From contig JAOACY010000038.1 of NCBI GenBank assembly GCA_026417615.1, forward strand, positions 1 to 35,881: DNA of 35,881 nucleotides, read 5' to 3'. Below are positions 21,549 to 30,994 of this stretch, one piece after another. This DNA comes from Clostridia bacterium (GTDB lineage Bacteria > Bacillota > Clostridia > Acetivibrionales > JAFADI01). A program made the translations under genes and the position numbers. The notes beneath the pieces were generated by a model. The model was not told the origin of the DNA, made no database searches, and saw nothing but the letters and a program-made list of their open reading frames with translations. Within the stretch, counting starts at the first letter, position 1. Each line of letters begins with the position of its first letter.

Positions 21549-21977
21549 ATGAGATTTTTCTTTATTATTTTTATTCTTGCTGTACTTGCAATAATGGCAG
21601 CTTGCAGCACAATTCTGAAAAATGCGAAGCTCAAGGAGGCAGAAGTGACTGAAGCAAAGGCGAGCTACACTGATATTTCACCCCAGGAGGCCAAAAAAAG
21701 GCTTGAAAGCGATAAAACCATAATTCTTCTGGATGTGAGGACTGTTGAGGAGAATCTGGAAAAACGAATTCCAAACAGTGTGCTAATCCCGGTTGATGTT
21801 ATTGATAAGGAGGCTGAGAAAAGGCTGCCTGACAAGGATGCGGAAATTTTTGTGTACTGCAGGAGCGGCAGGCGAAGCGTTATAGCAGCGAAGTCTCTGG
21901 TGAGAATGGGATATACCCGGGTTTACAATCTCGGCGGCATAAACGACTGGCCATATGAGACGGAAAGCGGAAAATAA
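21549..21977 (+). CDS. Rhodanese-like lipoprotein
   Basis: A 142-residue lipoprotein. The signal peptide ends in a lipobox with Cys 19 (MAACS), which places it outside the membrane. A single rhodanese domain (about 38-138) follows, with DVRT (62-65), the active-site loop YCRSGRRS (Cys 104), and GGINDWPYE at the end. Rhodaneses carry a persulfide on this Cys and move sulfane sulfur to acceptors such as cyanide or thiols. The CRSGRR loop is the usual single-domain type. It stands alone, with its own promoter, upstream of the aspA-hyd operon. A link to that operon's sulfur chemistry is unlikely, since the protein is exported. Confidence 0.88.
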   Translation: MRFFFIIFILAVLAIMAACSTILKNAKLKEAEVTEAKASYTDISPQEAKKRLESDKTIILLDVRTVEENLEKRIPNSVLIPVDVIDKEAEKRLPDKDAEIFVYCRSGRRSVIAAKSLVRMGYTRVYNLGGINDWPYETESGK

Positions 21978-22003: not shown

Positions 22004-22032
22004 TTTAAATCAACACAAAGCTTTGTTATAAT
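22004..22032 (+). promoter_or_regulatory. Probable promoter of aspA-hydFGE
   Basis: A perfect TATAAT (22027-22032) with a weak -35 TTTAAA (22004-22009, 17-bp spacer). Transcription would begin at about 22039, giving a 5' leader of about 175 nt. Confidence 0.55.
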
Positions 22033-22051
22033 AATAACAATTTAAAAATAT

Positions 22052-22161
22052 TCATTCTAACCTTGAGGGAAACATTGTCCTGAGAGAGAGGATTGGGGAA
22101 GCATATATGTAGATGTACAGAATGATTTTGCCCTTTCCTTGTCTTTAAGGAAGGGTTTTTT
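22052..22161 (+). ncRNA. Structured aspA leader with terminator (candidate attenuator or riboswitch)
   Basis: TCATTCT (22052-22058) pairs with AGAATGA (22119-22125) and closes a domain of about 60 nt holding a TCC...GGA hairpin with a GAGAGAGA loop. A terminator follows: CCCTTTCCTT (22131-22140) with AAGGAAGGG (22147-22155) and six T. AGGGAAA (22066-22072), inside the closed domain, could instead pair with TTTCCTT (22134-22140), which would break the terminator. This is the layout of a transcription-attenuating riboswitch. I do not recognise it as a known class; the GTCC-GAGAG-AGGA part faintly recalls PyrR sites. Confidence 0.55.
22131..22161 (+). terminator. Leader terminator upstream of aspA
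   Basis: A 9-bp stem (one bulged T) with a 6-nt loop and T run 22156-22161, ending 53 nt before the aspA start. It is inside the leader, so some read-through or control is needed for expression. Confidence 0.75.
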
Positions 22162-22214: not shown

Positions 22215-23624
22215 ATGAAGCCCGAGAGGCAGTACAGGATAGAAAGGGACTTACTGGGGGAGAAGGCAATTCCTGCTGATGCGTATTATGGAATTCATAC
22301 GGCAAGAGCTGCTGAAAACTTTCAAATAAGCGGAAGAAGAACAAATATCAATATGATAATGGCTGTGGTTCTTGTTAAAAAGGCGGCTGCCATGGCGCAC
22401 AGAAAGCTGAAGCATGCAGAGCCGAAGGTTGTAGAGGCTGTTATTGCCGCATGTGAGGACATTCTTGAAGGAAAATTCAACGACCAGTTTATTGTCGATG
22501 CCTTTCAGGGAGGAGCTGGCACCTCCACCAATATGAATGCAAATGAAGTGATTGCAAACCGGGCCATTGAGCTTTTGGGAGGGGTAAAAGGAGACTATTC
22601 CGTTGTGCATCCGCTTAATCACGTGAATTGCTGCCAGTCTACAAATGATGTTTATCCCACCGCCATGAGGATTGCAGCAATAAAGCTGCTGCGACCCCTG
22701 AGCGAGGCTTTTGCACAGCTGCAAACGGCACTGCAGGAGAAGGAAAACGAGCTGGCGGATGTTATCAGGCTGGGAAGGACGCAGCTTATGGATGCTTTGC
22801 CCATGATGGCGGGACAGGGCTTTGGAGCTTATGCAAGAGCTGTTGCCCGTGACAGGTGGAGATTATACAAGGTTGAGGAACGGCTGCGGGAGATCAATAT
22901 TGGCGGTACGGCAATCGGCACAGGCATGAATGCTTCAGTGAAATATGTTTTCATGGTGACAGACATACTTCAGGATATAACCGGACTTGGACTTGCCAGG
23001 AGCGAGTATCCCATGGACAACACCCAGAACATGGATGTATTTGTAGAGGTGTCGGGCTTGCTGAAGGCCGCGGCCGTTAATCTTATGAAGATTTCAAACG
23101 ATTTGAGACTGCTGGCCTCAGGCCCGGCAGGCGGGCTTGGAGAGATGAAGCTTCCAGCTGTTCAGGCGGGATCATCAATTATGCCCGGCAAGGTAAACCC
23201 TGTAATACCAGAAATGGTAGGGCAGCTTGCCTTGAAAATAATTTCCAACGATGCCGCCATAACCGGTGCGGCAATGAATGGGCAGCTGGAGCTTAATGCT
23301 TTTTCCCCTCTCATCGCTGAAGCCCTTCTTGAATCTCTTGAGCTGATGACAAAAGCTGTGGCGCTGTTTGAAAGAAAATGCATAAGGGGCATTGAAGCAA
23401 ATAAGAAAAGGTGTCTTGAAAATGTTGAAAAATCCTCGGCACTGGCAACCGCTCTGGTGCATCACCTTGGCTACGACATGGCTTCGGACATTGCAAAGAA
23501 GGCATGGCAGCAAGGCAGGACGGTAAGACAGGTGGCGGAGGATGAGGGGCTTCTGCCGCCGGAGCTGCTGGACAGAATTCTGAATCCGCTGCAGGTGACA
23601 AAGCCGGGGATTCCCGGACGGTAA
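22215..23624 (+). CDS. aspA: Aspartate ammonia-lyase, first gene of the hydrogenase maturation operon
   Basis: A 469-residue enzyme of the fumarase/aspartase superfamily that converts aspartate to fumarate and ammonia. Conserved parts are GGAGTSTNMNANEV (99-112), the TND-containing segment NCCQSTNDVYPTA (138-150), GRTQLMDA (187-194), and the flexible active-site loop with the catalytic Ser, GSSIMPGKVNP (319-329). The length and the start DLLGEKAIP fit AspA rather than fumarase. GGAGGGGTG lies upstream of the ATG. hydF follows 14 nt after the stop. aspA adjoins hydE/F/G in several anaerobes. It may supply ammonia for the azadithiolate bridge of the H-cluster, which is an inference. Confidence 0.92.
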   Translation: MKPERQYRIERDLLGEKAIPADAYYGIHTARAAENFQISGRRTNINMIMAVVLVKKAAAMAHRKLKHAEPKVVEAVIAACEDILEGKFNDQFIVDAFQGGAGTSTNMNANEVIANRAIELLGGVKGDYSVVHPLNHVNCCQSTNDVYPTAMRIAAIKLLRPLSEAFAQLQTALQEKENELADVIRLGRTQLMDALPMMAGQGFGAYARAVARDRWRLYKVEERLREINIGGTAIGTGMNASVKYVFMVTDILQDITGLGLARSEYPMDNTQNMDVFVEVSGLLKAAAVNLMKISNDLRLLASGPAGGLGEMKLPAVQAGSSIMPGKVNPVIPEMVGQLALKIISNDAAITGAAMNGQLELNAFSPLIAEALLESLELMTKAVALFERKCIRGIEANKKRCLENVEKSSALATALVHHLGYDMASDIAKKAWQQGRTVRQVAEDEGLLPPELLDRILNPLQVTKPGIPGR

Positions 23625-23638
23625 AGGAGGAATAATTG

Positions 23639-24880
23639 ATGGGAATGAATGAAACACCCTTGTCCGAGAGGGTTCACATAGCATTTTTCGGCAGGAGGAA
23701 TGCGGGAAAATCAAGCCTGATAAACGCACTTACAGGACAGGATATTGCGCTGGTATCTCCTGTGAAGGGCACTACCACAGATCCAGTTTATAAGGCTATG
23801 GAGCTGCTGCCGGTTGGGCCTGTTGTATTCATTGATACCGCAGGGCTTGATGATGAAGGCGAGCTGGGAGAGCTTAGGAAAAAGAAGTCCATTGAGGTAT
23901 TGGAAAAAACAGATATGGCAATTGTGGTAATTGACAGACTTGATGATTTTTCGACGGTAGAGCTTGACATTATTGAGAAAATAAAGGAGAAAAAGATCCC
24001 AATTGTCGGAGCTGTTAATAAAATAGATATTTGCCCTGTGGATGAAGGGCTTTTAAAGGAGTATGAGAAAAAACTTGGAATAAGGCTCTGCCCAGTGTCT
24101 GCAGAAAAAGGCATCGGGATTGGAGAACTGAAGGAGGCCATTATAGATGCCCTCCCTGTTGATGAAAGCAAATTTTCAATTGTGGGAGACCTGCTTTCAC
24201 CGGGGGATTTGGTAGTGCTTGTTGTTCCCATTGACAAGGCGGCTCCCAAAGGAAGGCTGATTCTTCCGCAGCAGCAGGTAATAAGAGATGTTCTCGAGAG
24301 TGATGCAATAGCAGTGGTAACAAAGGAGCATGAATTGAAGGATACGCTGGAGAATCTTGGTAAGAAGCCTCGACTTGTTATAACTGACTCTCAGGTTTTT
24401 CTTAAGGTGGCTGCGGACACTCCAAAGAATATTCCCATGACATCCTTTTCAATCCTTTTTGCGCGGCACAAAGGAAATCTGGCGGAGCTGGTCAAAGGAG
24501 CAAGAGCTGTTGAAACTCTACAGGACGGAGACAGGGTGTTGATTGCGGAGGCTTGCACTCATCACAGGCAGGCGGATGACATCGGAACGGTTAAGATTCC
24601 AAGATGGCTTCGGCAGAGAACCGGCAAGCAGCTTGATTTTCACTTTTCAAGAGGAATGAGCTTCCCGGACAATCTCAAGGACTTCAAGCTCATTGTTCAT
24701 TGCGGGGGATGCATGCTTAACAAAAGGGCAATGGGATATAGAATAGAGCAGGCTATGAGGGCAGGCACTCCGATTGTAAATTATGGAGTGCTCATAGCAT
24801 ACATCCAAGGGATTCTGGAGAGGGCAATAAGCCCCTTCCGCCTTGAAGAAATAGTTCTGGAAGAAGAATTGTCGGATTGA
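23639..24880 (+). CDS. hydF: [FeFe]-hydrogenase maturation GTPase/scaffold HydF
   Basis: A 413-residue scaffold that receives the diiron precursor made by HydG and HydE and passes the [2Fe] subcluster to apo-hydrogenase. The GTPase domain (about 10-170) has GRRNAGKSS (18-26), DTAGLDD (66-72) and NKID (127-130). A dimerisation domain follows, and the C-terminal domain binds a [4Fe-4S] cluster through C306-x-H308 and H354-C355-x2-C358, exactly the HydF signature. An upstream TTG at 23636 is in frame, but the ATG at 23639 has AAAGGAGG at 8 nt. It is placed between aspA and hydG, 14 and 22 nt away. No hydrogenase structural gene is in the window. Confidence 0.96.
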   Translation: MGMNETPLSERVHIAFFGRRNAGKSSLINALTGQDIALVSPVKGTTTDPVYKAMELLPVGPVVFIDTAGLDDEGELGELRKKKSIEVLEKTDMAIVVIDRLDDFSTVELDIIEKIKEKKIPIVGAVNKIDICPVDEGLLKEYEKKLGIRLCPVSAEKGIGIGELKEAIIDALPVDESKFSIVGDLLSPGDLVVLVVPIDKAAPKGRLILPQQQVIRDVLESDAIAVVTKEHELKDTLENLGKKPRLVITDSQVFLKVAADTPKNIPMTSFSILFARHKGNLAELVKGARAVETLQDGDRVLIAEACTHHRQADDIGTVKIPRWLRQRTGKQLDFHFSRGMSFPDNLKDFKLIVHCGGCMLNKRAMGYRIEQAMRAGTPIVNYGVLIAYIQGILERAISPFRLEEIVLEEELSD

Positions 24881-24902
24881 CACATTGACGGAGGGTGAAG
24901 GT

Positions 24903-26297
24903 ATGGTTGATTTTATTAAGGATGAATTGATTTATTCTCTGCTGGCAGCTGGTAAGGGAAAAAGCCAGACGGAGCTGGAGGCAATAATTGAAAAAGGAAG
25001 GCAGGCAAAAGGGCTTGATTTGGAAGAGGTTGCGGCGCTGCTTCAGAACGATTCGGAGAGAATTGAGGAAAAGCTGTTTGAGGCGGCAAGGCATGTGAAG
25101 GATGCTATCTACGGGACAAGAATAGTAATGTTTGCACCTCTTTATGTATCCAACTATTGCAGCAACAGCTGCCGTTACTGCGGCTATAAATGCTCCAATA
25201 AAATAACAAGAAAAAGACTTTCAGATGATGAAATCCGGAAGGAAATTGAGATAATAGAAGACCTTGGACATAAGAGAATTGCTCTTGAGGCAGGGGAGGA
25301 CGAAAAGAACTGCCCTATAGACTACATACTCCACGCAATGGAGGTTATCTACAAAACAAAGAGCAAGAAAGGCAGCATCAGACGGATAAATGTAAATATT
25401 GCTGCTACATCTGTGGAAAATTACAAAAAGCTTAAGGATGCAGGGATCGGAACCTATATACTATTCCAGGAGACGTACCACAGGGACACCTACAGGGAAA
25501 TGCATCCCACAGGGCCAAAGAGCGATTATGACTACCATACAACTGCAATGGACAGGGCAATGGAGGGCGGCATCGATGATGTGGGTGTTGGGGTCCTCTT
25601 TGGGCTTTATGATTACAAGTACGAAATTATGGGGCTTTTGCTGCACGCCATGCATCTGGAGGAGAAATTCGGAGTAGGGCCCCATACCGTTTCAGTTCCT
25701 CGCATGCGTCCCGCAGAGGATGTCTCGCTGGACAATTATCCATATCTGGTGTCTGATGAGGAATTTAAAAGGATTGTGGCAATTCTGAGGCTTGCTGTTC
25801 CGTATACCGGAATCATATTATCCACCAGGGAGGAACCCGGCTTCAGGGAAGAGGTAATACGGCTGGGCGTATCTCAAATAAGCGCAGGCTCTTGTACGGG
25901 AGTTGGAGGCTACAGCGAAAGCAGCGGCGGGTCCAAGGTCAGCTGTGGAACAGCCCAGTTTGAACCTGCAGACCACAGAACACCTCTGGAAATCATAAAA
26001 AGCCTTTGCAGACAGGGGTATATACCAAGCTATTGCACCGCATGCTACAGGGCCGGCAGGACAGGCGACAGGTTCATGCAGTTTGCTAAAAGCGGTAAAA
26101 TACACAATCTGTGTTATCCAAATGCCTTGATGACCTTCATGGAGTACCTTGAGGACTATGCAGACGAGGAATTGAAGGAAATTGGAAATAAAATGATAGA
26201 GGAGAACCTGAATAACATACCCAGCGAGAAGATGCGCCAAAATACCCGCGAAAGGCTTGAGAGAATAAAAAAAGGCGAGAGGGATCTTTTCTTCTGA
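24903..26297 (+). CDS. hydG: [FeFe]-hydrogenase maturase HydG (radical SAM tyrosine lyase)
   Basis: A 464-residue radical SAM enzyme that cleaves tyrosine to p-cresol and dehydroglycine, and turns the latter into the CO and CN ligands of a Fe(CO)2(CN) synthon. The radical SAM motif is C86-x3-C90-x2-C93. The C-terminal auxiliary cluster site is C378-x2-C381-x22-C404 with the diagnostic YRAGRTGDRFM after it. Both sites match known HydG spacing. The frame begins at a TTG at 24885, but GGAGGG lies 7 nt before the ATG at 24903. The gap to hydF is 22 nt and to hydE 17 nt. ThiH is the nearest relative; the C-terminal CxxC site excludes it. Confidence 0.97.
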   Translation: MVDFIKDELIYSLLAAGKGKSQTELEAIIEKGRQAKGLDLEEVAALLQNDSERIEEKLFEAARHVKDAIYGTRIVMFAPLYVSNYCSNSCRYCGYKCSNKITRKRLSDDEIRKEIEIIEDLGHKRIALEAGEDEKNCPIDYILHAMEVIYKTKSKKGSIRRINVNIAATSVENYKKLKDAGIGTYILFQETYHRDTYREMHPTGPKSDYDYHTTAMDRAMEGGIDDVGVGVLFGLYDYKYEIMGLLLHAMHLEEKFGVGPHTVSVPRMRPAEDVSLDNYPYLVSDEEFKRIVAILRLAVPYTGIILSTREEPGFREEVIRLGVSQISAGSCTGVGGYSESSGGSKVSCGTAQFEPADHRTPLEIIKSLCRQGYIPSYCTACYRAGRTGDRFMQFAKSGKIHNLCYPNALMTFMEYLEDYADEELKEIGNKMIEENLNNIPSEKMRQNTRERLERIKKGERDLFF

Positions 26298-26314: not shown

Positions 26315-27373
26315 ATGTATTCAATTGACACATTGCTGGAAAAATTATATATTGAAAATAACCTGCAAAAGGATGAGCTGGCATGGCTTATAGGCAATAT
26401 AAGCGATGAGGAGAAGGAAAGCCTCTTTGATTATGCTTTGAAAACCCGAAGAAGGTATTATGGAAATAAGGTTTATATGAGAGGCCTTATAGAGTTTTCC
26501 AATATTTGCAGGCAGAATTGCCTCTATTGCGGACTGAGGGCTTCAAACAGCAAGGTGGAAAGATACCGGCTTACAAGGGAGGAAATACTTGATTGCTGCA
26601 GGGAAGGCTATGGATTGGGATACAGGACCTTTGTGCTGCAAAGCGGTGAAGATCCCTGGTATACTGCGGAAAGGCTGGGGGACATCATAAGAGGGATTAA
26701 GAGTTTATTTCCGGACACAGCCGTAACCTTGTCAATCGGCGAGCGCAGCTATGAGGAATACAAGGAATTGCTGGGAGCAGGTGCGGACAGATATCTTCTA
26801 AGGCATGAAGCAGCGTCAAGGGAGCTTTATGAGAAGCTGCACCCGGACATGGATTTCGATAACCGCATTAACTGCCTCAAGAATCTTAAAAGCTTGGGAT
26901 ATCAAGTGGGAGCAGGCTTCATGGTAGGGCTGCCCGGACAGACACCACAGCATCTGGCAGAGGATTTATGCTTTCTAAAAAAGCTGGAGCCCCACATGAT
27001 TGGCATAGGCCCCTTCATACCCCACAGTGAAACTCCTCTTGCAGGGGAAAAAGGCGGTACGGTGGAGGATACACTGGTTATGCTGGCAATAGCAAGGCTG
27101 CTGGTGCCTGACAGCCTTATGCCTGCGACTACTGCCATGGGCTCTTTGCATAAAAAAGGCAGGGAGCTGGCCCTCAAGGCTGGAGCCAATGTAGTAATGC
27201 CAAATTTGTCGCCTGTTTCTGTCAGGGCGAAGTATGAAATCTATGAAGGCAAAATATGTACAGGTGATGAAGCGGCCCACTGCAGGCACTGCATTGAAGG
27301 AAGGATAAGGTCGGCAGGCTTTGAGGCGGACATGGGCAGGGGGGACAGCGTAAGGCTGAACACCTCTTTATAA
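26315..27373 (+). CDS. hydE: [FeFe]-hydrogenase maturase HydE (radical SAM)
   Basis: A 352-residue radical SAM enzyme that acts on the HydG product (Fe-cysteine-CO/CN complex) to form the diiron precursor loaded on HydF. The SAM cluster motif is C65-x3-C69-x2-C72 followed by GLRASN. A second Fe-S site C315-x7-C323-x2-C326 is present; it is conserved in some HydE proteins, including that of Thermotoga, and is lost in others. GAAGGAGGT lies upstream of the ATG at 26315. This is the last gene of the operon; family B fragment B3 begins 6 nt after its stop. BioB and PylB are relatives, excluded by context and motif spacing. Confidence 0.95.
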   Translation: MYSIDTLLEKLYIENNLQKDELAWLIGNISDEEKESLFDYALKTRRRYYGNKVYMRGLIEFSNICRQNCLYCGLRASNSKVERYRLTREEILDCCREGYGLGYRTFVLQSGEDPWYTAERLGDIIRGIKSLFPDTAVTLSIGERSYEEYKELLGAGADRYLLRHEAASRELYEKLHPDMDFDNRINCLKNLKSLGYQVGAGFMVGLPGQTPQHLAEDLCFLKKLEPHMIGIGPFIPHSETPLAGEKGGTVEDTLVMLAIARLLVPDSLMPATTAMGSLHKKGRELALKAGANVVMPNLSPVSVRAKYEIYEGKICTGDEAAHCRHCIEGRIRSAGFEADMGRGDSVRLNTSL

Positions 27374-27467: not shown

Positions 27468-28286
27468 ATGAATTCAGAGGGATTGGATTCCGACAAAATA
27501 CTTAGATACTCAAGACAGTTAATTTTAAAAGAGATTGGACCCGAAGGACAGGAGAAGCTTTTGAATGCAAAAGTGCTGGTTGCAGGGGCGGGAGGACTTG
27601 GCTCTCCTGTGCTTTTCTACCTTGCCGCAGCAGGAGTGGGAACAATAGGAATTGCTGATTTTGACACGGTCACTTTATCCAATCTGAACAGGCAGATCCT
27701 GCATTTTACAGGTGATCTCGGCAGAAGGAAGGTTGATTCGGCAGCGGAAAAGATAAAGCTTCTGAATCCCGAAGTGAAGGTGGTAAAGCATCCTGTCAGG
27801 TTAAGCACAGATAATGTTGAGGATGTTGTGCAGGATTATGATGTAGTCATAGATGCACTGGATAATTTCCCTGCCAGATATCTTCTCAGCGATTGCTGCT
27901 TTTTCATGAAAAAGCCTTTGGTGGAAGGCGCTGCGGTTGGCTTTGACGGCATACTTATGACAATATTGCCCGGGAATTCTCCCTGCTACAGGTGCCTTTA
28001 CCCTGAACCTCCCAAGGATGGTGTGGTTCCAGCCTGCGGCGATACTGGGATATTGGGGGCGGTAACAGGAACCATAGGGTCGCTCCAAGCACTGGAGGCT
28101 ATCAAGGTTATACTTGGAATAGGGAAAACACTGACGGGAAGAATTCTAACCTTTGATGCTCTAGAGCTTAATATCAGGGAAGTACAGTGGAAGCGGAGAG
28201 AGAACTGCCCATTGTGCGGGAAAAATCCTACAATCAGGGAGCTTGAGCAGTACGAGCTTAAGTGCAAGCTGAAAACTGTAGAATAA
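27468..28286 (+). CDS. ThiF/MoeB/HesA-family E1-like adenylyltransferase
   Basis: A 272-residue ATP-dependent activator that adenylates the C-terminal glycine of a ubiquitin-like sulfur carrier (ThiS, MoaD or similar). The N-terminal RYSRQLIL is the family opening. The nucleotide loop is GAGGLGS (40-46), DFDTVTLSNLNRQ (64-76) carries the ATP-contacting Asp and Arg, and Asp 129 follows. Two C-x2-C pairs (C173/C176, C247/C250) bind structural zinc. Cys 190 (VPACGDTG) sits where ThiF has its acyl-disulfide Cys. CGGAGG precedes the ATG. No ThiS- or MoaD-like gene is visible, so the pathway is open. HesA/MoeB-like genes often lie near metal-cofactor genes. Confidence 0.9.
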   Translation: MNSEGLDSDKILRYSRQLILKEIGPEGQEKLLNAKVLVAGAGGLGSPVLFYLAAAGVGTIGIADFDTVTLSNLNRQILHFTGDLGRRKVDSAAEKIKLLNPEVKVVKHPVRLSTDNVEDVVQDYDVVIDALDNFPARYLLSDCCFFMKKPLVEGAAVGFDGILMTILPGNSPCYRCLYPEPPKDGVVPACGDTGILGAVTGTIGSLQALEAIKVILGIGKTLTGRILTFDALELNIREVQWKRRENCPLCGKNPTIRELEQYELKCKLKTVE

Positions 28287-28292
28287 ATTATA

Positions 28293-28500
28293 CTATATAG
28301 GTTACTATAAATAGCTTACATTGAGGAGAAAAGTGATTGTTCAAAGGCATTTCAATAGCATCGAAAAGATGAATTCGAGGGAAATGTCTTTAGAGTTCGA
28401 GCATGAATTCACTTTCCTCGGATGTATTCCTTACGGGTCGGTGAAATGGCCTTTGCCCGATAACTTTTTCCATATAAGCTATTTATCGTATTTAATATAG
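28293..28500 (+). repeat. Family B palindromic repeat, full copy B2
   Basis: 208 bp from CTATATAGGTTACTATAAATAG to TTTATCGTATTTAATATAG, inverted at the ends. The same nested hairpin as B1 is kept, including AAAGGCATTTC with GAAATGTCTTT. It begins 7 nt past the ThiF-like stop and fills most of the 363-bp stretch before the MtaB-like gene. Confidence 0.9.
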
Positions 28501-28511
28501 AATCCATATTA

Positions 28512-28555
28512 ATTTTTATACTTACAATTCCTATAGGAATTGTAAGTATAAAAAT
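28512..28555. repeat. Perfect 44-bp palindrome
   Basis: Two 22-bp arms meet with no spacer at 28533/28534 (centre CCTATAGG). Every base pairs. It lies 11 bp after repeat B2 and 95 bp before the MtaB-like start codon. No T run follows it, so it is not a standard terminator. It could be an operator, a cruciform site or an RNA hairpin. Confidence 0.95.
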
Positions 28556-28649
28556 ACAATTTAAACAAAGATTCTGCAAGAACCATGTCCTGCCTTTGTA
28601 GTAATATTAAAGCAGATAAAACAAGATAAATTAAGGGGGCGTGGTTAAA

Positions 28650-30032
28650 ATGTTAAAGAAATTTGAAGGTCTTGCATATGCAAGCACAAATGATTTTATT
28701 TACGGTGTTTCAAAGAAACCTGTAACATGCAAAAACGGATTAGTTATAGGCGGAGGCAAAATAATTCCCGAATTGAACTTCACCCTGCCTCCAATGAATG
28801 TGTCCGACAACACAATGCCCGAGGTTATTGCCCAGTACAAGGGGATCATGGAGGATGCATTAAAGAGGGCTGTTGAGCTCTGCCAGGATAAGCTGGTGGT
28901 TGAAGTGGAGCTTCTCCCTCCGGCAACCTACAATCCGGCATGGGGGATAGAAATCTGTAAGGTAGTGCGCAACAAAATGTGGGAGTATGAATCAAAGCAC
29001 GGCCTAAAGAGTGCATTGCGCATCACTCCTGTGGATATCAGGGAAGACAGGAGATCACCTCATATGTGGAGAGGCGAAATGTGGGATAAGATAATGGAAA
29101 CCTTCGAAGGCTGTGCAAAAGAAGGAGCAGATTTTCTTGCAATAGAGTCAATAGGCGGCAAGGATATACATGATGACGCAGTAATGTTCTGCGAAATTGA
29201 CAAATCCCTTTTTGCGCTGGCGGTGCTTGGAGTTAAGGACATGCACAGGTTATGGAGCCACATTAGCTCAATAGCAGCCTCCACAGATTCAATTCCCGCG
29301 GGCGATGCAGCGTGCGGATTTGGCAATACGGCAATGGTTCTGGCAGAGCGCGGATTTGTTCCAAAGCTTTTCTCGGCAGTAGTTAGGGTAATATCAGCCG
29401 TAAGAACACTTGCGGCATTTGAGGCAGGCGCTGTAGGGCCAAACAAGGATTGCAGCTATGAGGGAGTGTTTATTAAGGCTATCACCGGATCGCCAATTTC
29501 CATGGAAGGCAAATCAAGCGCTTGCGCTCATTTAAGTCCTTTGGGCAATATTGCAGGCTGCGTTGCAGACCTCTGGTCCAATGAATCAGTGCAGAACATC
29601 AAGCTTTTGGGAGGAATGGCTCCTACAGTTTCACTCGAGCAGCTGGTATATGACTGCAGGCTGATGAATAAGGCTTCCGAAAAAGGGCAGGAAGGAGCTC
29701 TATGGATGAGGGATCTGATGGCCGAATCCGACAGCAAATTCGATCCGCAGGCATACATTTTAAGACCTGACGTGGTTATGGATATTGCCGGTGAGATAGT
29801 GAAGGAAGGGGATTATATAGATAAGGCTCAGAGGGCTGCACTATATACTATCGGAAGATTCAGAAGCGCAATAGAAAAGGGAGAGCTTTCTGTAGACGAG
29901 CGGGAGGAAATGTGGCTTGATACAATGCAGGGCCAGCTTGAGGCGATACCTGCAGATCATGACAGGTTTATCGCAGAGATGGTTCAAGCCAATGAGAGTG
30001 AAAAATTTGTAGCTGCCAAATATGATCTGTAA
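28650..30032 (+). CDS. mtaB: MtaB-type methanol:corrinoid methyltransferase
   Basis: A 460-residue zinc enzyme of the family that moves the methyl group of methanol to the cobalt of a corrinoid protein (MtaC). Compared from memory with Methanosarcina barkeri MtaB, the length and whole layout agree. All three zinc ligands appear in the right places: Glu 166 (AIESIGGKD), Cys 222 (AACGFGNTAM) and Cys 268 (GPNKDCSYE). ITGSPISMEGKSSACAH is another shared block. An in-frame GTG at 28641 overlaps the AAGGGGG site, which serves the ATG at 28650 at 10 nt. The usual partner mtaC and the methylase mtaA are absent from the window. It may use another methoxy or methanol-like donor. Confidence 0.88.
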   Translation: MLKKFEGLAYASTNDFIYGVSKKPVTCKNGLVIGGGKIIPELNFTLPPMNVSDNTMPEVIAQYKGIMEDALKRAVELCQDKLVVEVELLPPATYNPAWGIEICKVVRNKMWEYESKHGLKSALRITPVDIREDRRSPHMWRGEMWDKIMETFEGCAKEGADFLAIESIGGKDIHDDAVMFCEIDKSLFALAVLGVKDMHRLWSHISSIAASTDSIPAGDAACGFGNTAMVLAERGFVPKLFSAVVRVISAVRTLAAFEAGAVGPNKDCSYEGVFIKAITGSPISMEGKSSACAHLSPLGNIAGCVADLWSNESVQNIKLLGGMAPTVSLEQLVYDCRLMNKASEKGQEGALWMRDLMAESDSKFDPQAYILRPDVVMDIAGEIVKEGDYIDKAQRAALYTIGRFRSAIEKGELSVDEREEMWLDTMQGQLEAIPADHDRFIAEMVQANESEKFVAAKYDL

Positions 30033-30046
30033 AGCAGGTGATTAAT

Positions 30047-30994
30047 ATGGCTAAAATCAAGGCGGATGTCATATCAGGTTTTTTAGGAGCAGGGAAGACC
30101 ACCCTGCTCTCCAAATATGCGGCTTATAGAATAAAGCAGGGTGAAAGAATAGCAATCATTGAAAATGAATTCGGTGAGACAGGCATTGACGGGGCTTTCC
30201 TGAAAAATGAGGGCCTGTCGGTTTATGAAATAGTAAACGGCTGTATATGCTGCTCACTGAAAGGGGATATCATCTCAACCTTAAAGGCACTTGCGGCAGA
30301 AAAAGACCTGGCAAGGGTGATAATTGAACCTACAGGAATATTTATGCTCAATGAGATATACGAAATCATAGGTGTTCCGGAGCTGGCGGGGCATTATGAA
30401 ATCAATGCAGTTGTGACAGTAGTTGATGGCCGAAATTATCTGAAACAGCAAAAGCGATACGGCTGGTTTTTTGAAAACCAGATAAAATGGGCTCACCGCC
30501 TGATTCTCAGCAAGACAGGACTTATTGACAAGGACGCCATACTTAGGACAATTGCTTCCTTGCAGGAGATTTGCACAACCCTTGAGATTGAAGCAAAGCT
30601 ATGGGACAAATTCACGGATGCGGACTGGGAGAGGCTTTTTGGAGCCGGATGCCCTTCTTTAGCCGCAGAGGACGGAGAGTGCAGCTGTGGCTGCCGTTAC
30701 AGCCATGGCGGGCATTTAGTCCATGAAGGCTTTAGTGGCGTGTCAATACCATGCAGCAGGTCTTTTGACAGGCTTTCCCTTGAGGCTACTGTTAAAATGC
30801 TTTCGTCAGGCATTTTTGGGGATATACCAAGAGCAAAAGGGATTGTGGCGGATGAATCCAAGGGCAGCATTGAATTTAATTATGTAAATGGAGATATTGA
30901 AATACGTCCAAGGGATAAGGCAGCTGAAAAGGAGTATATCAGCTTCATAGGTTCAGGAATAAACAAAAGCGCTTTGTTAAAGCTTTTTGTGTGA
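30047..30994 (+). CDS. CobW/COG0523-family metallochaperone GTPase
   Basis: A 315-residue G3E GTPase. Walker A is GFLGAGKT (11-18), ENEFGETGIDG (39-49) is the switch, CICC (66-69) is the family's metal site, and EPTG (94-97) follows. A Cys/His cluster (C202, C212, C214, C216, H220, H223, H226) lies in the linker and should bind zinc or cobalt. The C-terminal CobW_C domain (about 235-310) is shorter than usual. Known relatives deliver zinc to target enzymes or act in cobalamin synthesis. It starts 14 nt after the MtaB-like gene, a zinc enzyme, so delivery of zinc to MtaB is the obvious idea, not proven. GCAGGTG lies 6 nt before the ATG at 30047. Confidence 0.9.
   Translation: MAKIKADVISGFLGAGKTTLLSKYAAYRIKQGERIAIIENEFGETGIDGAFLKNEGLSVYEIVNGCICCSLKGDIISTLKALAAEKDLARVIIEPTGIFMLNEIYEIIGVPELAGHYEINAVVTVVDGRNYLKQQKRYGWFFENQIKWAHRLILSKTGLIDKDAILRTIASLQEICTTLEIEAKLWDKFTDADWERLFGAGCPSLAAEDGECSCGCRYSHGGHLVHEGFSGVSIPCSRSFDRLSLEATVKMLSSGIFGDIPRAKGIVADESKGSIEFNYVNGDIEIRPRDKAAEKEYISFIGSGINKSALLKLFV

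Follow-up and report, generated by a model that had tools for sequence, protein, structure and literature searches.

The pyrR gene is often the first gene of pyr operons, and the PyrR-controlled attenuator (RF00515) combines an anti-antiterminator, an antiterminator and a terminator within one leader, as does the leader described here. Riboswitches with intrinsic-terminator platforms share another trait with it: the switching strand overlaps the 3' strand of a conserved structured domain. For the [FeFe]-hydrogenase maturation genes, the same aspA-hyd neighborhood is on record as a hyd operon with an ammonia-lyase gene, and ammonium for the dithiomethylamine ligand can come from AspA (PMC11736057); the main text of that paper concerns biochemistry and gene linkage, and neither "regulat" nor "TM1266" occurs in it. 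In the literature covered, with subscription journals largely outside its scope, we found no RNA element for hydrogenase maturation, nor did term look-ups show one in PMC8632094, PMC11109978, PMC2864571, PMC6429828 and PMC3543383.

We analyzed a window of 35,881 nucleotides (contig C67) from a draft genome of 2.46 Mb that is 84% complete, in which an aspA-hydF-hydG-hydE operon follows a structured leader (Table 1). Judged from sequence comparison and predicted folds, this leader is likely to be a transcription attenuator with a conserved hairpin of 37 nt at its core, and the family of this leader would mark [FeFe]-hydrogenase maturation genes. In simple terms, a small RNA structure common to many anaerobic bacteria lies ahead of the genes for the metal center of the iron-only hydrogenase, and it probably decides whether these maturation genes get transcribed.

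Table 1 Features of the aspA-hydF-hydG-hydE locus (window positions).
Feature	Position	Strand	Basis or detail
Promoter-like site	22004-22032	+	consensus scan: TTTAAA, 17-nt spacer, TATAAT, TG before second hexamer
Conserved hairpin, 37 nt	22056-22092	+	three 3-bp helices, variable apex; models R1-R3, pair counts
Helix P1	22056-22058/22090-22092	+	
Internal loop P1/P2, 3 by 3	22059-22061/22087-22089	+	
Helix P2	22062-22064/22084-22086	+	
Internal loop P2/P3, 2 by 2	22065-22066/22082-22083	+	
Helix P3	22067-22069/22079-22081	+	
Antiterminator strand (3' side of P1 and flank)	22089-22101	+	12 pairs with 22133-22145
Intrinsic terminator	22132-22161	+	5' arm and loop (22133-22145) = second antiterminator strand
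aspA-family aspartate ammonia-lyase, first gene of operon	22215-23624	+	NF008909, 664.5 bits (cut-off 510)
hydF	23636-24880	+	TIGR03918, 589.1 bits
hydG	24885-26297	+	TIGR03955, 662.9 bits
hydE	26315-27373	+	TIGR03956, 506.6 bits

The promoter-like site is of the extended -10 type, its TATAAT hexamer ending at 22032, from which we infer a transcription start near 22039; a rhodanese-like gene upstream on the same strand ends at 21977. An earlier note, made from the letters of this DNA, had proposed a terminated leader before aspA-hydFGE, and this stands: the terminator at 22132-22161 has 10 bp followed by TTTTTT, none of 200 shuffles folded equally well, and a structured region lies between it and the promoter-like site. 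The same note had taken 22052-22125 as the core domain; that segment alone proved no more stable than shuffled sequence (z 0.20, 106 of 200 as good), and the core is 22056-22092. Its proposed closing stem, CATTCT/AGAATG, does form 7 Watson-Crick pairs in the window, but stems of 6 or more pairs at this place were found in only 3 of 37 leaders, where 0.82 would be expected. BLAST of the leader against its own genome returned the leader itself and seven short matches at chance level. Downstream of hydE (27468-30994), we noted genes for a MoeB/ThiF-like adenylyltransferase, an MtaB-like protein (its 399 bits fall short of the 720 that the family requires) and a CobW-like GTPase.

The conserved block was spotted by comparing 59 aspA loci of named genomes, in many of which hydF adjoins aspA. 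It consists of CUAACCUCAAGGG, a variable loop and CCUGAGAGAGAGGA, followed by a terminator with a pyrimidine-rich 5' arm, and is present upstream in L011 (Candidatus Formimonas warabiya), L012, L013 and L044, with a diverged version in L019 (Natronincola peptidivorans) and L022 (Anaerovirgula multivorans). The latter two also carry an extra long hairpin upstream of the motif, with similar flanks (UUCUG ... AAGGA; L019:2735-2790 and L022:2755-2805). The window has GAGGG where our first strict pattern demanded AAGGG; because that pattern was too strict and missed the window itself, the phylum and viral scans made with it are no evidence of absence.

The pairs of the three helices covary strongly, including at sites from other classes. 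In alignment A6 (41 distinct rows), which was fitted to the model structure, standard pairs occupy 98.9% of 368 cells, and two-sided changes occur in 59 cells as against 20.6 in shuffles, with none of 500 shuffles as high. Versions of the structure slid along A6 gave at most 16 such changes. The exchanges are seen at the outer P1 pair (UA 28, CG 9, UG 4), the first P2 pair (CG 26, UA 10, UG 3, GC 2), the middle P2 pair (UA 20, GC 12, AU 8) and the last P3 pair (GC 20, AU 17). Two of five pair measures, the count of pairs and that of pair types, did not rise above shuffles on A6 (105 and 125 of 500). The 16 sites from the phylum scan, which entered no model, are 99.3% paired and show 30 two-sided changes versus 11.3 in shuffles (0 of 500 as high); two of the five measures likewise did not exceed shuffles there. 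Our first register for P3 was rejected, since a shift by one base on the 5' side raised the two-sided changes from 32 to 46. Purines are conserved in both internal loops, the helix between these loops covaries freely, and the apex is variable, with a GNRA-like tetraloop recognizable by eye at several sites.

Terminators accompany the hairpin: one was found within 180 nt downstream in 29 of 32 leaders, versus 18 of 160 shuffled stretches, and at 13 of the 16 phylum-scan sites. The 3' strand of the hairpin and its flank can pair with the terminator's 5' arm and loop, over 15 bp in L177, 13 in L174 and 12 in the window, with weak antiterminators of 5 bp in L179, L207 and L228. Cognate partners fit each other better than permuted terminators do among 24 representatives (sum -309 versus -263.5, sd 12.6, p 0.0003), and in 36 of 37 leaders the antiterminator uses bases of the P1 or P2 3' strand. 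The earlier note had assigned the switching role to another pairing, AGGGAAA (22066-22072) with TTTCCTT (22134-22140); the positions are right and the pairing is possible, but it is not conserved, and pairing by the AGGG strand is not cognate-specific (p 0.40, or 0.17 with column-based cuts). The broader claims of attenuation logic and of RNA control over the hydrogenase maturases nevertheless gain support from the conserved, covarying hairpin together with the conserved antiterminator/terminator pair.

Eight leaders (L172, L176, L193, L208, L210, L249, L252 and L254) have no clear terminator and may have a different mode of action. In L252, which has no terminator, the 3' strand of P1 overlaps the apparent ribosome-binding site of an ECF gene, from which the same sign of control would follow.

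Complementarity predicts an antiterminator that cannot coexist with the terminator and that the upstream hairpin would in turn prevent; hairpin, antiterminator and terminator would thus be mutually exclusive, which amounts to an anti-antiterminator design. As the leader is transcribed, the hairpin's 3' strand would have two alternative partners. If the hairpin were held folded, this strand would be occupied, the terminator could form and transcription would stop; if not, the strand would pair with the terminator's 5' arm and loop, and the resulting antiterminator would let aspA-hydF-hydG-hydE be read. When the window was folded to 22146, with the 5' arm of the terminator just out, the antiterminator reached -20.5 kcal/mol versus -16.4 kcal/mol for the P1-closed form, and P1 was also open in the unconstrained minimum (-23.5 kcal/mol). 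Since free leader folds favor the antiterminator at this point, read-through would be the default and termination the outcome of a stabilized hairpin. The hairpin is therefore probably an anti-antiterminator with the logic of the pyr attenuator, acting as an OFF switch.

Covariance models made here, supplemented by a structure descriptor, led us to a total of 67 sites in 62 genomes, within and beyond the class of the window (42 in A6, 9 from its own order and 16 from the phylum scan). As near-identical sites of one family are included (e.g. L168-L172 and L182), 67 is a number of sites and not of independent events. Of these, 65 precede [FeFe]-hydrogenase maturation genes or TM1266, one an ECF transporter gene and one a formate-dehydrogenase-like operon. 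The first gene is TM1266 at 31 sites, hydF at 15, aspA-hydF at 8, hydE-hydG at 5 and hydG at 5; the ECF gene, the formate-dehydrogenase-like operon and a 282-residue open frame before hydF (L137) make up the rest.

Model R1, built from five sequences, gave 19 matches in 18 of 391 genomes of the class, 16 of them before aspA-hydF, hydF, hydE-hydG, a TM1266-family gene (recognized by TIGR03959 and PF21699) or, once, the formate-dehydrogenase-like operon (L157, the same site as L173). L160 (also L181), L161 and L164 were dropped for their unrelated context, and none recurred with R3. R2 found matches in 10 of 30, 5 of 151 and 9 of 225 genomes of three orders, after which L194 and L195 were discarded as false by gene context (L194 was again false with R3); it had no match in 53 further aspA loci, which include Paenibacillus and several Clostridium with aspA-hydF. 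R3 returned 30 matches in 26 of the 391 genomes. At E values up to 0.0041, 25 of 26 precede hyd, aspA-hydF or TM1266 genes, the remaining one being L157, whereas none of the four weaker matches does; L232, L233 and L234 were dropped as false, as was L204 (17.3 bits). Five of the 26 (L226, L227, L228, L230 and L231) are absent from all models, and all five precede TM1266-hydE or TM1266-hydG. On the minus strand of L173 (3548-6049), a strong motif copy followed by a terminator stands before an operon for NuoE, NuoF and a GltD/formate-dehydrogenase-alpha fusion that lacks hydrogenase genes.

The phylum scan, our most stringent check, covered 259 genomes, nearly all from other classes, and besides the window yielded 17 matches in 16 genomes, 15 of which precede hydF, hydG or TM1266 genes. 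L253 was dropped for unrelated context; the other match, L245 (= L252), directly precedes the substrate component of an ECF transporter (PF12822). Because a PF12822 gene adjoins TM1266 in 11 genomes, that of the window included, this match fits the theme; loci with such a neighbor include G000:C71 (L201), L204, L206, L244, L184 and L255-L258. In the order of the window, R2, R3 and a structure descriptor added L137, L129, L119, L125 and L140 on the hydF side, and further sites lie before TM1266-hydG (L122, L123, L124, L126, L127 and L131). The descriptor alone matched 14 of 116 upstream regions, with 0.1 expected from shuffles. Where stretches around hydF and some TM1266 genes were covered, the motif is present in 14 of the 58 genomes that represent the order; the weak rows L104, L116, L130 and L138 and the descriptor matches L113 and L143 were left out of all counts. 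The TM1266 gene of the window's own genome (G000:C71) has no motif in the upstream stretch examined.

A second conserved element was observed between hairpin and terminator in the TM1266-hydG leaders of two families (L123, on the reverse complement at about 1630-1690, L122, L124, L126, L127, L131, L179 and L191). It reads GAGGG, 5-6 nt, CCCAAGUG, 2-3 nt and AAGGC, preceded by GUUCUGA, and gave neither an Rfam match at gathering score nor a tRNA call.

What might hold the hairpin folded? A protein that binds the conserved internal loops, with TM1266 as the first candidate, has in our estimate close to an even chance. The TM1266 family (TIGR03959, PF21699), known as putative iron-only hydrogenase system regulator by annotation only, is tied to the same regulon: of 31 motif-bearing genomes checked, 30 have it, and the one without it is 61% complete. 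Its presence is compatible with such a role and non-discriminating, given that 52 of 58 genomes of the order have TM1266 above cut-off and 14 have the motif. By sequence, PDB 2nzc was its sole match. We tentatively propose, as a fuller model to which we give somewhat less weight, an undescribed RNA class controlling [FeFe]-hydrogenase assembly in several bacterial classes, with TM1266 as its RNA-binding regulator in a PyrR-like autoregulation and with a signal that comes either from H-cluster assembly, as a product, or from the linked ECF transporter, as its substrate. The hairpin could instead be a riboswitch that, without any protein, binds a small molecule or an ion connected with H-cluster assembly, e.g. 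a HydG/HydE product or precursor, an iron species or the compound for which the linked ECF transporter is specific, the geometry being the same and the sensor different. The conserved purines of the two internal loops, with a freely covarying helix between them, speak for this, as does the ECF component, which immediately follows the motif in L252 and neighbors TM1266 in 11 genomes; TM1266 as first gene at 31 of 67 sites speaks against it, as does the simplicity of the architecture, since one hairpin whose apex varies freely and whose two internal loops are small would make a plain metabolite pocket. We consider a riboswitch a serious possibility that falls somewhat short of even odds. A signal concerned with aspartate or ammonia only is less likely because aspA is found at just 8 of the 67 sites, most of which precede TM1266, hydF, hydG or hydE, and this also weakens the aspartate, ammonia or fumarate ligands that the earlier note had suggested.

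Whatever the effector, its sign could be reversed, such that it disrupts the hairpin or favors the antiterminator and the bound state is ON. The conserved strand belongs to both folds, and an effector might prefer either; yet at 22146 the predicted folds favor the antiterminator even for the leader by itself, and the conservation of the internal loops concerns the hairpin and not the antiterminator, so this reversal appears improbable. Hardly credible is a mere terminator of an upstream transcript, the remainder being chance. The end of the rhodanese-like gene on the same strand and the unexceptional stability of 22052-22125 would agree with it, but a promoter-like site lies in between, and hydrogenase-related genes are preceded by the covarying hairpin at 67 sites; this conservation refutes it.

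Maturases are costly, and we found no earlier report, in the literature searched, of H-cluster maturases tuned to demand via RNA. Since the element is common to 62 genomes, it defines a testable regulon, and as a shared element it offers a way to approach what TM1266 and the ECF transporter do. It could also be of use for tuning hydrogen metabolism in anaerobes.

Compared with known systems, the earlier note's view that no known class is present agrees with our searches: Rfam 15 gave no match at gathering score in the window or in ten other motif-bearing loci. Lax matches to Arrc14, PyrR, SNORA72, LhrC and the L10 leader were rejected as far under their gathering scores. A survey that reportedly lists 224 candidate RNAs is part of this comparison only so far as its families are in Rfam. 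The PyrR motif, CCNGNGAGG, has a weak sequence likeness to CCUGAGAG here. Membership in RF00515, with a cut-off of 54 bits, was rejected on score (21.1 bits in the window, 30.1 in L019, 29.3 in L022 and 21.1 in L179) and on gene context, as the first gene is hyd, aspA, TM1266, ECF or formate-dehydrogenase-like at 66 of 67 sites and an open frame before hydF at the other (L137). A regulator gene is often first in both systems (pyrR there, TM1266 here at 31 of 67 sites), whereas the hairpin architecture differs and hydrogenase genes replace pyrimidine genes; the PyrR RNA is thus the nearest known system in logic and fails on score and gene context. Unlike riboswitches, the present candidate has no assigned ligand and no matching Rfam 15 family at cut-off; it does have a conserved structured domain of the riboswitch type, a property that protein-binding leaders would have as well. 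The hairpin leader, apparently uncatalogued, is classed here as a new RNA family of a known kind, the transcription attenuators.
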